Of a DNA stretch of 64,000 nt, positions 27,703-32,350 are shown one piece after another. This DNA is from Spirochaetota bacterium. Lineage in GTDB: Bacteria; Spirochaetota; Spirochaetia; Treponematales; UBA12059. Under the pieces are notes generated by a model. The model worked only from the letters and a program-made list of their open reading frames with translations. It was not told where the DNA came from and searched no databases. The number at the start of each line of letters is the position of its first letter. The first letter of the stretch is position 1. The position numbers and the translations under genes are program-made. The stretch is from contig JADFDI010000004.1 in the NCBI GenBank assembly GCA_018262985.1, positions 248,001-312,000 on the forward strand. Direction: 5' to 3'.

Positions 27703-28005
27703 GCGGGCGCAGCCCCTCCGACGGTCGACGAGCGTCAGCTCGTCGCCGTGAACGGGCGCGAAGCGGGAGCAGCCCCTCTGACGATCGACGAGCGTCAGCT
27801 CGTCGCCGTGAACGGGCGCGAAGCGGGAGCAGCCCCTCTGACGATCGACGAGCGTCAGCTCGTCGCCGTGAACGGGCGCGAAGCGGGAGCAGCCCCTCTG
27901 ACGATCGACGAGCGTCAGCTCGTCGCCGTGAACGGGCGCGAAGCGGGAGCAGCCCCTCTGACGATCGACGAGCGTCAGCTCGTCGCCGTGAACGGGCGCG
28001 AAGCG
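27703..28005. repeat. 60-bp tandem repeat array, about five copies
   Basis: A 60-bp unit repeats head to tail. Copies two to four are identical, the first differs at a few positions, and the last is partial; a degenerate piece lies before the first. Each unit contains a perfect hairpin CGACGAGC-gtca-GCTCGTCG. Because 60 is a multiple of three, both strands have open frames through the array, but these lack support as genes. It fills the gap between the LiaF-like gene and the convergent glycosidase gene. Confidence 0.9.
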
Positions 28006-28015: not shown

Positions 28016-29470
28016 CTAGAGCTTGTCGATCAGCATCGAGCATTTGCCCGAAGGTATCGGCAGGGTCTTCTTCTTCTTGTTGAGCACGTTGATGGTGAAG
28101 TAGTAGAGCTTCTCGCTCTCCATGTGGATTTCCCAGCCCCTTCCGCTCTTGTTCGAGAGTATCGTGACCATGTTGCGCTTGAGCGACATGTTCTCGATGC
28201 CCATGATCTCGAGGTTCGGGATGATCCAGTCCACCGTCTTGCGCGGCAGGCTGATCGAGAGCCCCACGATGTTCTCGATCATGAGCGCGATGGTGGACAG
28301 GGCCCCGAAGGCCAGGAACTGCGAACGCGGCCATCCGGCCTTTTCGGGCCAGACGGCCTTGCCCTCGTTCTGGGGCTGGTAGGCTTCCCAGATGACCTGC
28401 CGCGCTTCCTTCTCGCCCCGTTCGCGCTCGCGCTCGCCGTTGGCCGCGTGCATGGTGTCGAGCACGAAGTACAGGTGCCGGATGGCGCACTCGCGGGCCA
28501 GTTCCCAGTGGTTGTACTTTTCCAGGCCCTTGATGACCATGTAGGTGAAGGGCGGCAGCACCGAGCCGCGGAAACCCAGGCCGCGCTTGTCGTAGTTCGG
28601 GTCGTCGGCGGCCAGGGTCGGGAAGGGATGCTCGGTGCCGAAGGCCTGCGGATCGGTCAGGTGCGCGATCAGCTTCTCGGCCCGGTCCTCGTTGGGGATC
28701 TCCGCCAGCAGGGGCCAGAACGCGCCCACCGTGCGGACCTGGGTCTGCCGCTCCGCGGCGTCCAGGTCGAAGTAGAACCCCTTGTCGTGGTTCCACATCA
28801 TGGAATTGATGCGGGTCTTGAGGCTGAAGTACGCGCGCTTGTACTGGAAGCTGGCTTCCTTGTCGTTGAGGATGTCCGAGAGCGCGGACATGTAGAGCGC
28901 GTTGGTCGCCATGATCGCGTTGAAGTCCGCGTGGTAGACCGCGGCGCCGCGGGGGGAGTTCTCCATGCCCGTGGCGGCCAGGGGCGCGGCGTACAGGCCG
29001 TTCTCGCGCTTCCAGGTCCGCTCCACCCACTGGTGGTACTTGTGGAGGGCGGGCATGACCTCCTTGACGCGCTTCTTGTTGGCGGTCTTGTGGTAGAGGT
29101 TGTACTCGGCCCAGGCGAAGAGCGGCGCCGCGAGTCCTTCCGGGTTGTCCTTGGTCAGCACCGGCTCGCCGGATTCGAGGTCGTAGGATCCGCGGATGGC
29201 CCCGGATTCCTCCTGCTTTCCGTAGAGCGCGTCGAGGCCGTTCGAGGCCGCGTAGAGCCGGTTCGAGTAGACGAGGAAGAAGGAGGCGAACACCTGGTCG
29301 AGCTGGTCGAGCGTGCGCGAGGGCGGATAATGGAAGAACTTGTCCTTGGGGAAACCCTTCCGGGCGTCGCCGACGGTCCAGTAGTCGGCGATCCACGCCC
29401 AGGACTTGTCGTAGATGTCCACGAAATCCTGGTCGTAGAAATGTACCCGCGGAAAATCGCGCTTGTTCAC
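28016..29470 (-). CDS. trehalase/GH63-like (alpha/alpha)6-barrel glycoside hydrolase
   Basis: The 484-residue cytoplasmic protein resembles the MGH1-like/trehalase clan. Family-like segments include 'YPPSRTLDQLDQVFASFF' near residue 45, 'GLAAPLFAWAEYNLYHKT', 'NSMMWNHDKGFYFDLD' near 225, 'GAFWPLLAEIP', 'RGLGFRGSVLPPFTY' and 'WEAYQPQNEGKAVWP' near 395. It probably acts on an alpha-linked glucoside; the substrate is not certain. The GTG start has AGGAG eight bases upstream; no in-frame ATG is closer. A strong promoter lies about 110 bp upstream, so the mRNA has a leader of ~100 nt. The gene stands alone, with the repeat array beyond its stop. Confidence 0.8.
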   Translation of the reverse strand: MNKRDFPRVHFYDQDFVDIYDKSWAWIADYWTVGDARKGFPKDKFFHYPPSRTLDQLDQVFASFFLVYSNRLYAASNGLDALYGKQEESGAIRGSYDLESGEPVLTKDNPEGLAAPLFAWAEYNLYHKTANKKRVKEVMPALHKYHQWVERTWKRENGLYAAPLAATGMENSPRGAAVYHADFNAIMATNALYMSALSDILNDKEASFQYKRAYFSLKTRINSMMWNHDKGFYFDLDAAERQTQVRTVGAFWPLLAEIPNEDRAEKLIAHLTDPQAFGTEHPFPTLAADDPNYDKRGLGFRGSVLPPFTYMVIKGLEKYNHWELARECAIRHLYFVLDTMHAANGERERERGEKEARQVIWEAYQPQNEGKAVWPEKAGWPRSQFLAFGALSTIALMIENIVGLSISLPRKTVDWIIPNLEIMGIENMSLKRNMVTILSNKSGRGWEIHMESEKLYYFTINVLNKKKKTLPIPSGKCSMLIDKL

Positions 29471-29578
29471 GTGATGGGCTCCTCGCTTGTATACGAACCG
29501 CGCGGCCGTCAAGCCGCCGCGGAATCCTGCATGAAATGACAGATTTCTACACAGAATGGCAGTATTGGACAGTTTCAG

Positions 29579-29608
29579 AATATAGTACAGGCTCCGTTCC
29601 GTTGTCAA
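29579..29608 (-). promoter_or_regulatory. strong sigma-70-like promoter for glycosidase gene
   Basis: On the minus strand, consensus TTGACA and TATATT are separated by 18 bp, in an AT-richer stretch. The leader to the GTG start is about 100 nt long and has no obvious operator palindrome. Confidence 0.65.
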
Positions 29609-29679
29609 ATCGAAGCGTCGATCGAGCCCGGCGTTGCATTTTCCCCTTGCTTTTTGACCGGTTTGCACTACCTTTAAAT

Positions 29680-29951
29680 CAGGCGACGGATTCGTCCGTA
29701 CCGACCGGCAACCCATCCGTGGGTCCGGCGGACAGCGTCATAAGCCAAAGGAGGCCAATCGTTTGGACACTCCCCCGGTCGAAGACGCGCCGGCGATCGC
29801 TCGGTGAAGGACGCCGGCCACTCGCGTTCGATGGTTCCTCTCGGAACGTGACGGACGCCCTGCCCGTAGCGCGCTTTTCTTAAAGCGCCATCCCGCCTGA
29901 AAACGCGGGACCTTAAGGAGCCGACCATCGAGTCGGCTCCTCGTTTTTTTA
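29680..29951 (+). ncRNA. candidate structured non-coding RNA
   Basis: No convincing protein gene lies here, yet eight stem-loops follow one another in ~270 nt and the last is a canonical terminator. The stems, in order, are ACGGA with a TTCG loop, a ~12-bp bulged stem capped by ACCCA-TCCG-TGGGT, CCAAA/TTTGG, GCCGGCG/CGCCGGC, GTTCC-TCTC-GGAAC, GCGCTTT-TCTT-AAAGCGC, TCCCGC/GCGGGA and the terminator. TTGACC and TTTAAAT just upstream could be a promoter, though their spacing is short. It does not match tmRNA, RNase P RNA or the common riboswitches that I can check by eye. The third loop contains AAAGGAGG, followed eight bases later by a 14-codon TTG reading frame, so a short leader peptide is an alternative. 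Calling it an RNA gene is inference. Confidence 0.5.
29917..29950 (+). terminator. rho-independent terminator
   Basis: A 9-bp perfect stem GGAGCCGAC/GTCGGCTCC with a six-base loop is followed by TCG and seven Ts on the plus strand. No plus-strand protein gene precedes it, so it ends the candidate RNA. Confidence 0.85.
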
Positions 29952-30025
29952 TCGCCGGGATCCCTTCGGGAAAGGCGACTCGTCCGCCTCCGCCCCTGCC
30001 TCGCCGCCTCCGCCCCTGCCGGTCA

Positions 30026-31915
30026 TCAGACGGCCTCGCCCGCCCGGGAGCCGATGCGGAAGGCGGCGACCAGCGCGGCCGTGCGCTCGTTGAGGGCGGC
30101 GGCCCGGGTCGCGAGTTCGCCGAGGCCCGCCACGCGGCGCAGGATGGCGGCGTTCGCCTCTTTCATGCTCTCCGAATCCGCCCCGGTCTCGCTGGCGTCC
30201 CGCTCGAGCGCCTCGAGGATGTCGCCCAGCCTCGTACCGAGCTCCTCGAGGCCGTCGGCGGCGCGGGCGTTCTCGGCCGAGCTCTCGAGCGACTCGCGGA
30301 GCGCCTCGAGTATGGACGTGTTCATGCGGTCCTGGCTGGACATGCTCGAGGCGATGGCCGCGGTCTCCTCGTCCACCGAGTCGAGCACCTTGGCCATGCG
30401 GGAGAAGGCCTCCTCGTTGGCCTGCGCGACGCCGAGCGCGCGCTGGATGTCCTGCACCACCGCCTTGAGGCTCTCGCGCGAATCCTTGGTGTGACGGGCC
30501 GTGGTCTCGGCCAGCTTCCGGATCTCGTCGGCCACGACCGAGAAGCCCGCGCCCGCCGCGCCGGCGTGCGCCGCCTCGATGGCCGCGTTCATGGCCAGCA
30601 GGTTGGTCTGGCTCGCTATCCGGGCGATTACGGCATTGATCTCCGTGAGGCGCTCGGACCGGTCCGCGACCGCCCGCACCACCTCGAGGCTCTCGCGCAC
30701 CGACTTTCCGCCCTCGTCGAAAACCTTCGCGAGCTCGTCGACCTGCGCCTTCACCTTGGCCGTCCGCCCGGACGCGTTCGACACCGCGTCGAGGGCGATC
30801 TCCGCGCTCATGGTGCTGTTTTTTACGGAAGCCTCCTGCGCTCGGGCGCGCTCGGCCACGGCGCGGGCGGTCTCCGCGAGCGCGGCGCCGGCCTTGAGCG
30901 CGTTCGCGACGCTCTCGTCCTCGTGGTCTATCAGGGCGCGAACCGAATCGATGCGGGCGGCCACCTCCGAGGCGCCCCGCGTGGCGTCCTCCACCCCGTC
31001 GTAGAGCTCGCGCTCGATTGCGTGCATCTCTCCGAAAGCGCCCGCGAGCTCGGCGACCGAGGACTCGAGCGAATCGACGAAGGCGTTGATGCAGCCCTGG
31101 ATGGCCGCCACCTCGTCGACGCCCACGATGGGGATGCGTCCGGTCAGGTCCTTGTCCGCGGAGGCCATGCGCGCGACGCGATCTCGCGTGATGCGGTAGA
31201 CGCGCGTGGTATTGCCCTTCCATATGACAACGAGCGAGACGATCATGACCTGGTACGCGGCCATGACGGGCAGCATCGGTTTGCCGACACGCTCGAACAA
31301 CGAGGCCGAACCGAATCCCGTCTCGGCGAAGAGCATGGAGAACGCGAACGCGGTCAGGGACGACATGAGGGACATGAAGACGGGAATGATGACGAGCTTG
31401 CGGCCCTGGCGCTCCTCGTAGAGCCCGGGCGGGAAGCGGGTCAGTCGCTCGGACAGCAGTTTCTCGAGCAGGATGCGGTCCTGGAAGACGTAGAGCAGCG
31501 CGGCCAGGTAGAAGAGCGCGGTCAGCGACACCATGAAGGCTATCCAGGCGCTCGAGCCGAGTCCCAGGCCGGCTATCCGGTGCCAGGCCACGTTGCCCCC
31601 CAGGAAGACCAGCATGAACGCGAGGTAGGTGAGGAAATTCTTGAGCGGCACCGCTCCCGCCTCGACGATGGCCCGCTCGTAGCGGACCGGATCGTTCTCG
31701 ATGGGCGCGAGCGGCTCCCTGAACCGACGCCCCCGGCGAAGCACGATGAGGACGTAGGGCGGGAAGAGGACGAGCGCGGAAATCGAACGGACCACGAGCG
31801 GCGCCGCGTCGCCGCGCCCGGCCACGCCGATCCACAAGTCGACGCCGAGACTCGACGCGAGCGCCAGCAGCGGCACCAGAAGCACGACAGCGAGGTAGCG
31901 TCCGTAGTGGCTCAT
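30026..31915 (-). CDS. methyl-accepting chemotaxis protein
   Basis: The 629-residue protein has about six N-terminal membrane segments (residues ~8-240), no large periplasmic sensor loop, a HAMP-like stretch after residue 250 and a C-terminal signalling domain. The MCP hairpin tip is clear: 'INAVIARIASQTNLLAMNAAIEAAHAG', then 'FSVVADEIRKLAE' near 440-480. Such proteins pass ligand or membrane signals to CheA/CheW and steer the flagella. GGGGAG eight bases before the ATG supports this start over the ATG at 31939. The multi-span membrane part suggests sensing within or at the membrane; the ligand is unknown. Confidence 0.88.
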   Translation of the reverse strand: MSHYGRYLAVVLLVPLLALASSLGVDLWIGVAGRGDAAPLVVRSISALVLFPPYVLIVLRRGRRFREPLAPIENDPVRYERAIVEAGAVPLKNFLTYLAFMLVFLGGNVAWHRIAGLGLGSSAWIAFMVSLTALFYLAALLYVFQDRILLEKLLSERLTRFPPGLYEERQGRKLVIIPVFMSLMSSLTAFAFSMLFAETGFGSASLFERVGKPMLPVMAAYQVMIVSLVVIWKGNTTRVYRITRDRVARMASADKDLTGRIPIVGVDEVAAIQGCINAFVDSLESSVAELAGAFGEMHAIERELYDGVEDATRGASEVAARIDSVRALIDHEDESVANALKAGAALAETARAVAERARAQEASVKNSTMSAEIALDAVSNASGRTAKVKAQVDELAKVFDEGGKSVRESLEVVRAVADRSERLTEINAVIARIASQTNLLAMNAAIEAAHAGAAGAGFSVVADEIRKLAETTARHTKDSRESLKAVVQDIQRALGVAQANEEAFSRMAKVLDSVDEETAAIASSMSSQDRMNTSILEALRESLESSAENARAADGLEELGTRLGDILEALERDASETGADSESMKEANAAILRRVAGLGELATRAAALNERTAALVAAFRIGSRAGEAV

Positions 31916-32044
31916 GGTCGGAACTCCCCATTTTTCCATTTGCCGGACGCCGAACCGGGATGACGTCCGCGCGAGGTTCAAGTATACTGGGCGTCCGTCG
32001 ATCCGCAAGCCGGACGACGGGACGCGCTCGTCACGGGGGAAGCG

Positions 32045-32350
32045 ATGATCATCACCATGTACAGGACGGGCGAGGACGGACGCCTGCGGTACTACACGCT
32101 CCACGACCGCCAACCGGTCATGGGGCACCCCTACGCCCTGACGGTCGCCTGGCGGACCGGCAACGGGGCCGAGCGCGAGAAGCTCTACGTGTTCGATTCA
32201 CTGGCCGACATGGACCGCAAGATCCGCGAGGTGTTCGGCCGACGGATCCGCGACGGCTACCGCCTGCTCTACAGCTTCAGCCGCGAGGACTCCGCCCGCC
32301 GGAACGCGCGCGGGACCGCCCAGCGCCCCGCCGTCGCGCTGGCCACTTGA
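32045..32350 (+). CDS. small protein with WGR-like fold features, unknown function
   Basis: The 101-residue protein reads as a single small domain. The pattern 'YYTLHD', 'YALTVAWRTGNG', 'YVFDSLADMDRKIREVF' and 'RIRDGYRLLYSF' recalls the layout of WGR domains (strand, W-R/G motif, helix, K..GY), but the match is weak and no family is assigned. WGR domains bind nucleic acid near strand breaks. A TATACT -10 lies about 56 nt before the ATG. It is divergent from the MCP gene and ends 3 bp from the convergent DRTGG-like gene. Confidence 0.65.
   Translation: MIITMYRTGEDGRLRYYTLHDRQPVMGHPYALTVAWRTGNGAEREKLYVFDSLADMDRKIREVFGRRIRDGYRLLYSFSREDSARRNARGTAQRPAVALAT

Follow-up and report, generated by a model that had tools for sequence, protein, structure and literature searches.

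The question raised by this locus is whether a stretch without protein genes, lying within a 64,000-nt window of a Spirochaetota bacterium contig (JADFDI010000004.1, positions 248,001 to 312,000; coordinates below count from the first nucleotide of this window), produces an RNA of its own and, if so, of which kind. The original prediction had described a gene-free, hairpin-rich region. No gene of annotated type was found within positions 29680-29950, and the predicted plus-strand fold of this segment displayed about eight hairpins, with a folding energy of -129.6 kcal/mol; dinucleotide-shuffled sequences averaged -108.6 ± 4.8 kcal/mol, and not one of 200 folded as stably (z -4.35). The complementary strand was also well folded (z -5.64), as expected of perfect stems. 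Folding alone does not choose the strand, and the plus strand was chosen because the promoter, the Shine-Dalgarno sequence (SD) with its ORF and the terminator are all located on it. The terminator expected on this strand was present, as were AAAGGAGG and the 14-codon TTG frame. The promoter proposed at the outset (TTGACC...TTTAAAT) did not hold: neither sister species retains TTGACC (they have TTTAGCC and TTCCCCC), and a sigma-70-type TTGCTT-16-TACCTT is conserved instead. From the position of the latter, transcription would be expected to start at about 29680.

Table 1 Features of the RNA locus and of its neighbours in the window
Feature	Position	Strand	Remarks
Predicted structured RNA, ~271 nt	29680-29950	+	Fold z -4.35; sister species 86-94% identity; structured relatives
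Sigma-70-type promoter TTGCTT-16-TACCTT	29647-29674	+	Kept in genus; predicted from sequence
5' hairpin CCGG-CA-ACCCA(UCCG)UGGGU-CCGG, UNCG loop	29704-29732	+	Core CGGCAACCCATCCGTGGGTCCGG kept in six f4 genomes
Shine-Dalgarno GGAGG	29750-29754	+	Partly paired with ORF start
Short ORF MDTPPVEDAPAIAR, TTG start, 14 codons	29763-29807	+	M(D/E)xPP start kept
Pro-Pro codons 4 and 5	29772-29777	+	Invariant residues; third positions vary
Hairpin PA (GCCGGC...GCCGGC)	29788-29818	+	At ORF end; stop codon in PA loop
Hairpin P5 (GCGCUU...AAGCGC)	29871-29888	+	Covariation in f1, f4, f5
Hairpin P6 (UCCCGC...GCGGGA)	29891-29910	+	Predicted fold; similar post-P5 stem by eye in other families
Intrinsic terminator AGGAGCCGAC-loop-GTCGGCTCCT + T7	29916-29950	+	Terminator ends relatives too
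Glycoside hydrolase (MGH1-like/trehalase fold), divergent neighbour	28016-29470	-	Pfam PF22422, E 7.9e-34; start GTG at 29470
Methyl-accepting chemotaxis protein, convergent neighbour	30026-32128	-	Pfam PF00015; context only
Small DUF gene, ~100 aa	32045-32350	+	Beyond the chemoreceptor gene in the window

Relatives of the element were found by several routes, and 51 more copies bring the total, with the window, to 52 in six families of one spirochaete class (families are numbered, f1 being the window's own). A DNA search recovered two sister species, with 94 and 86% identity. It also returned a match of 26 bases from a different family of the order, which proved to be a syntenic copy with the divergent hydrolase, the RNA and a small DUF-type gene. 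The hairpin CGGCAACCCATYCGTGGGNCCG, used as a pattern, then found five more f4 genomes; the 5' hairpin core CGGCAACCCATCCGTGGGTCCGG gave access to the first distant relatives. With the hydrolase gene, which itself lies outside the RNA, as synteny anchor, the divergent intergenic regions were read across the f1 genera: the RNA was present at this locus in genera g1, g2, g4, g6, g7, g9 and g10, and the locus was without RNA in g5 and g3, where the hydrolase adjoins the next gene or other genes come next. A scan of named genomes gave further organisms and four additional f4 copies. Order-wide, the DNA pattern GGAGG-N(3-9)-ATGGANRMYCCNCC gave 45 matches in 41 of 394 genomes, compared to about nine for a reversed-pattern control, and inspection showed real copies in f5 and f3, in unrelated genomic surroundings. 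A sequence-only covariance model (R1) was near noise class-wide and less specific than the DNA pattern, yet it revealed the f45 copies; together with a looser pattern, it added to the f3 copies and extended the set beyond the order, with one copy from f10 and seven from f45, the latter being short forms about 170-200 nt long. The relatives range in length from about 170 to 470 nt. Twenty of the 52 copies, the window included, are located at the divergent glycoside-hydrolase locus, and the neighbours of the others are unrelated genes, on either strand. Outside the class, the pattern matched twice in 149 genomes, both times inside a gene and not above the reversed-pattern control; by pattern search, the family appears to be restricted to this class.

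One cultured carrier is Brucepastera parasyntrophica RmG11, whose copy is located at about 1,361,397-1,361,421 on the minus strand of NZ_CP084606.1. The pattern did not match in Treponema vincentii or T. putidum, and the single match in Alkalispirochaeta alkalica resembles a protein-gene false positive seen elsewhere. Match L114, inside a glycogen-debranching-type gene, was discarded, as were L122, L130, L151, L154-L156, L192, L210 and L211, located inside protein genes or of wrong anatomy; L014, an apparent match of the same family, is without the element. One f3 genome showed two MENPP pattern matches about 3.5 kb apart (G164:C22:22492 and 25992, the second being L150), possibly two RNA copies in one genome.

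Several observations concern the surroundings of the element. The hydrolase seems to have its own conserved divergent promoter on the minus strand (TTGACA at 29608-29603, TATATT at 29584-29579), with a 5' leader of about 100 nt (29471-29608, minus strand); TTTGTCAAAT and GAATATA blocks occur here in most relatives. A tandem array of 5.1 copies of a 60-bp unit (27703-28005, 98% match) sits between a 206-aa ORF and the hydrolase gene, with frames open on both strands. Between the terminator and the chemoreceptor stop, two CTCGTCCGCCTCCGCCCCTGC-type 20-mers were found at 29979-30020, which were not seen in the sister species L003. The small DUF gene is located near the hydrolase in most f1 and f4 genomes, and in most relatives the chemoreceptor gene is missing between it and the RNA. 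The DUF protein gave no Pfam match, and nothing was found when viral contigs were scanned with it. By eye, a promoter-like TTNAG-17-GATANN stands directly before the ATG of the DUF gene, which is apparently close to leaderless, the box abutting the ATG.

The aligned sets share a common order of parts: one or more 5' hairpins come first, followed by the SD and start codon, the short ORF, PA, additional stems (P4 in f4), P5, P6 and the terminator. The promoter motif TTGNNT-16-TANNNT stands ahead of the RNA in all 20 syntenic copies (the -35 box being TTGACA in one), with the same -35, -10 and spacing in 19 of them, and occurs at the equivalent place in other families; in 40 of the 52 copies a promoter-like site was present 40-140 nt upstream of the SD, compared to 6.9 expected from shuffles. 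The terminator forms the 3' end of the element in all 20 syntenic copies, and also in other relatives. Fold z was below -2.5 in 33 of 34 full-length copies, with a median of -4.3. Of the stems originally predicted, the first, ACGGAUUCGUCCGU, is confined to the window's genus, while different families have in common PA, P5, a P6-like stem and the terminator. The covariation proposed as a check was observed. For P5 over f1, f4 and f5, 93.8% of cells were paired, with 19 double-change cells compared to 6.6 ± 2.0 in shuffles (0 of 500 as high; slid controls 1-4), and for PA, in 21 copies of five families, 14 such cells were counted compared to 5.3 ± 2.0 (slid controls at most 6), both sets of rows being hand-trimmed around visible hairpins, which favours pairing, and the shuffles ignoring relatedness. 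The window's PA was read from the predicted fold, and its row lies outside the 21-copy set. P4 exhibited compensatory changes at three pairs in f4, P4 and P5 together giving 6 cells compared to 1.8. In f5 (L116-L128), a single-stranded-looking AGAGACAG follows PA in most copies and might be a protein- or target-binding site. The comparison supports well, and with high confidence, a conserved plus-strand transcription unit at 29680-29950.

We then compared the element with known RNA families. The proposed cmscan against Rfam 15, at E up to 10, gave chance-level matches only (the best was Xoo2, with 21.1 bits for a gathering score of 45), and at gathering scores no family matched the element or 20 relatives; the gathering-threshold matches in the window were tRNAs and SRP RNA only, located elsewhere than the element. 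This is in agreement with the original prediction, which could not match it to tmRNA, RNase P RNA, 6S RNA or a common riboswitch. A search of the open-access literature found no description of this RNA. The spirochaete motifs in the main text of one intergenic-RNA survey are the Leptospira ilvB and sucC-II motifs, both before genes (PMC8632094), and the main text of another holds no spirochaete entry (PMC11109978). The candidate new ncRNA with its own terminator is thus supported, being without a Rfam gathering match, conserved across genera, families and beyond the order, and endowed with covarying stems. These comparisons place the RNA in a new family of free-standing, structured sRNAs that carry a short ORF, and not among tmRNAs, 6S RNAs or the leaders of one gene.

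The short ORF was examined across the 52 copies. The start codon is ATG in 48 of them, GTG in two and TTG in two, the window among the latter, with GGAGG 3-9 nt ahead in almost all copies, and nearly all begin with M(D/E)xPP. Codon 2 is GAA, GAT or GAC in 50 of 52, the two non-acidic exceptions being MNNPP and MVTPP. Pro-Pro stands at codons 4-5 in 52 of 52, partly by search design: the search patterns or models used for f3, f5, f45 and f10 already contained it, and its invariance there is by construction, while it is present in all 16 f1 and f4 copies found without using it, through DNA identity, hairpin pattern or synteny. The proline codons themselves vary (codon 4: CCG 35, CCA 9, CCC 7, CCT 1; codon 5: CCT 27, CCG 16, CCC 9). 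In eight groups of related copies, the BLOSUM62 mean of the codon differences was 0.74 in frame, compared to -0.43 and -0.12 in the other frames, and beyond codon 5 the corresponding means were 0.09, -0.19 and 0.20, that is, without coding signal. The in-frame signal is found only in codons 2-5, and the protein-type constraint therefore concerns the first codons and not a folded peptide. The ORF length varies from 8 to 30 codons, with lineage-specific peptide conservation such as MEEPPI.xGR..RHQT in f45. In evolutionary terms the ORF is real, and nothing in the RNA is as well conserved as its start; selection appears to retain the initiation site together with the first five codons, the remaining peptide being left to drift with the RNA structure.

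These data bear on two opposite explanations of the ORF. The RNA could be purely structural, the SD-like and start-like sequences then being an untranslated motif, namely an SD/anti-SD hairpin. Indeed, in many copies codons 3-5 are able to form pairs with the SD (GGAG/CUCC), so that pairing may be a partial cause of their conservation, and past codon 5 the protein-type constraint is missing. However, the start codons swap only among ATG, GTG and TTG at 3-9 nt from the SD, the third positions of the proline codons vary, and the in-frame substitution scores exceed those of the other frames, and we consider a purely structural RNA unlikely. The RNA could, on the contrary, be a small mRNA with the peptide as its functional product, as the kept start, SD and first five codons and the lineage-specific conservation in f45 would suggest; but a product of 8-30 codons without amino-acid constraint past codon 5, in an RNA whose stems are conserved, makes this quite improbable.

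Other explanations concern the unit as a whole. The original prediction had also envisaged an attenuator with a leader peptide, the terminator being read through to express the next gene. The ORF proved to be conserved, ORF, hairpin and terminator together have the anatomy of an attenuator, and a same-strand gene comes next in several lineages: the DUF gene in most syntenic copies, RadA, YchF or a radical-SAM protein. The attenuator part was weakened, however, since the next gene is often on the opposite strand (the chemoreceptor in the window's genus, RNase Y, PFK, a Na/H exchanger, MerR), and a leader of one gene is unlikely because the downstream genes differ in kind and strand; moreover, the DUF gene has the promoter-like sequence of its own described above. 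PA and the terminator could pair in f3, f5 and f45, where both hairpins are GCCGG/CCGGC, but over 52 copies the PA 3' arm with the terminator 5' arm gave -9.05 kcal/mol for matched pairs, hardly better than -8.21 kcal/mol for mismatched ones (sd 3.46), without clear co-evolution, and an exchange between the two hairpins is not supported. Altogether, we consider the attenuator improbable. A CsrA-titrating RNA of the CsrB/RsmZ kind would account for the GGA in the SD and elsewhere; in 34 copies, however, GGA was not enriched (272 seen, 253 expected) and was hardly more unpaired than other triplets (0.26 compared to 0.22), and we give this explanation very little credence. A divergent housekeeping RNA (tmRNA, 6S or RNase P) missed by Rfam is likewise most improbable. 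The 6S slot is open, as RF00013 was undetected in the window's genome and 23 relatives by a search that finds 6S in well-known control genomes. Nevertheless, the element, which has no RF00013 match, folds as a row of hairpins with an ORF and not as a long 6S-type rod, a genuine tmRNA is located elsewhere in the same genome (G000:C20:154829-155181, 134 bits) whereas the element ends in an intrinsic terminator, and whole genera of the same family are without the RNA, at this locus and by pattern, a distribution ill suited to a housekeeping RNA.

SgrS/SgrT is a dual-function sRNA whose SgrT is a conserved functional protein. The RNA described here likewise appears as a free-standing terminated sRNA carrying a small ORF, with a promoter and a terminator of its own on sequence evidence, as dual-function sRNAs have, but unlike in SgrT only the first five codons are constrained. 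The uORF/sORF candidates from intergenic-region mining, such as the fthC and ilvB motifs, have a similar layout, with SD and start between stems, the stop in the second stem and a terminator hairpin as the third, and differ in preceding one constant gene (PMC11109978). The closest parallels for the codons are found in magnesium-transport genes. The mgtQ ORF of the Salmonella mgtCBRU operon has 8 codons with Asp2, Pro4 and Glu5, its early acidic codons abort ribosomes, and it overlaps alternative stems (PMC8092293); in MgtL of E. coli and Salmonella mgtA, the ribosome is affected by acidic and proline codons that directly follow the start, and the RNA is refolded, the EPDP pause being eased by EttA (PMC11282234). 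The ORF studied here is similarly tiny, its first six codons including acidic and proline ones (D/E at codon 2 in 50 of 52, PP in 52 of 52), and has two adjacent prolines where mgtQ has one. In contrast, mgtQ is a uORF inside an operon that controls mgtB and mgtL regulates mgtA in cis through Rho, whereas the present stand-alone RNA ends in an intrinsic terminator with no constant next gene. Pro-Pro is a classical EF-P substrate, according to references in the same two papers (PMC8092293, PMC11282234), and M(D/E)xPP(E/D) would, by analogy, combine the early-acidic/proline and the Pro-Pro types.

On the unit, the covarying stems and the start with its first codons, all drawn from comparison, a mechanism can be built in which transcription, translation and pausing are what we infer, with mgtL and mgtQ as models for the pausing. 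The ribosome would bind the SD, part of which is masked by pairing with the first codons, start at ATG, GTG or TTG and meet M-(D/E)-x-P-P(-E/D), a sequence of a type known to cause early pausing or drop-off. It would then pass, wait or fall off, according to EF-P, an EttA-like factor or Mg2+; held at codons 4-5, it would lie over the SD hairpin and extend towards PA. This outcome would decide the folding of PA, which overlaps the ORF end, and of the rest of the RNA, and the folding would in turn set RNA stability or activity in trans. The own-unit reading is supported by the promoter and terminator that relatives from six families have of their own and by the covariation of P4, P5 and PA. Early acidic or Pro-Pro codons do not always pause ribosomes, and this counts against the pausing reading, as does the lack of clear co-evolution in the PA-terminator pairing. 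We rate at about even the chances that the RNA is a sigma-70-transcribed, terminated, structured sRNA with a translated short ORF, on which early pausing or drop-off sets the fold and which acts in trans.

Very few structured RNAs have been described in this spirochaete group, as far as the literature searched and Rfam go, and no description was found for this one, though six families carry it. We propose only tentatively, as a rather doubtful possibility, that it is a class-wide, free-standing 'ribosome-sensor' RNA that would report EF-P activity, Mg2+ or charged tRNA-Pro in trans, and not by cis control; the early pausing motif would then be the sole conserved coding content of the sRNA. If the mechanism is right, this RNA would be a ribosome-pausing element acting as an independent RNA, free of any one target gene.
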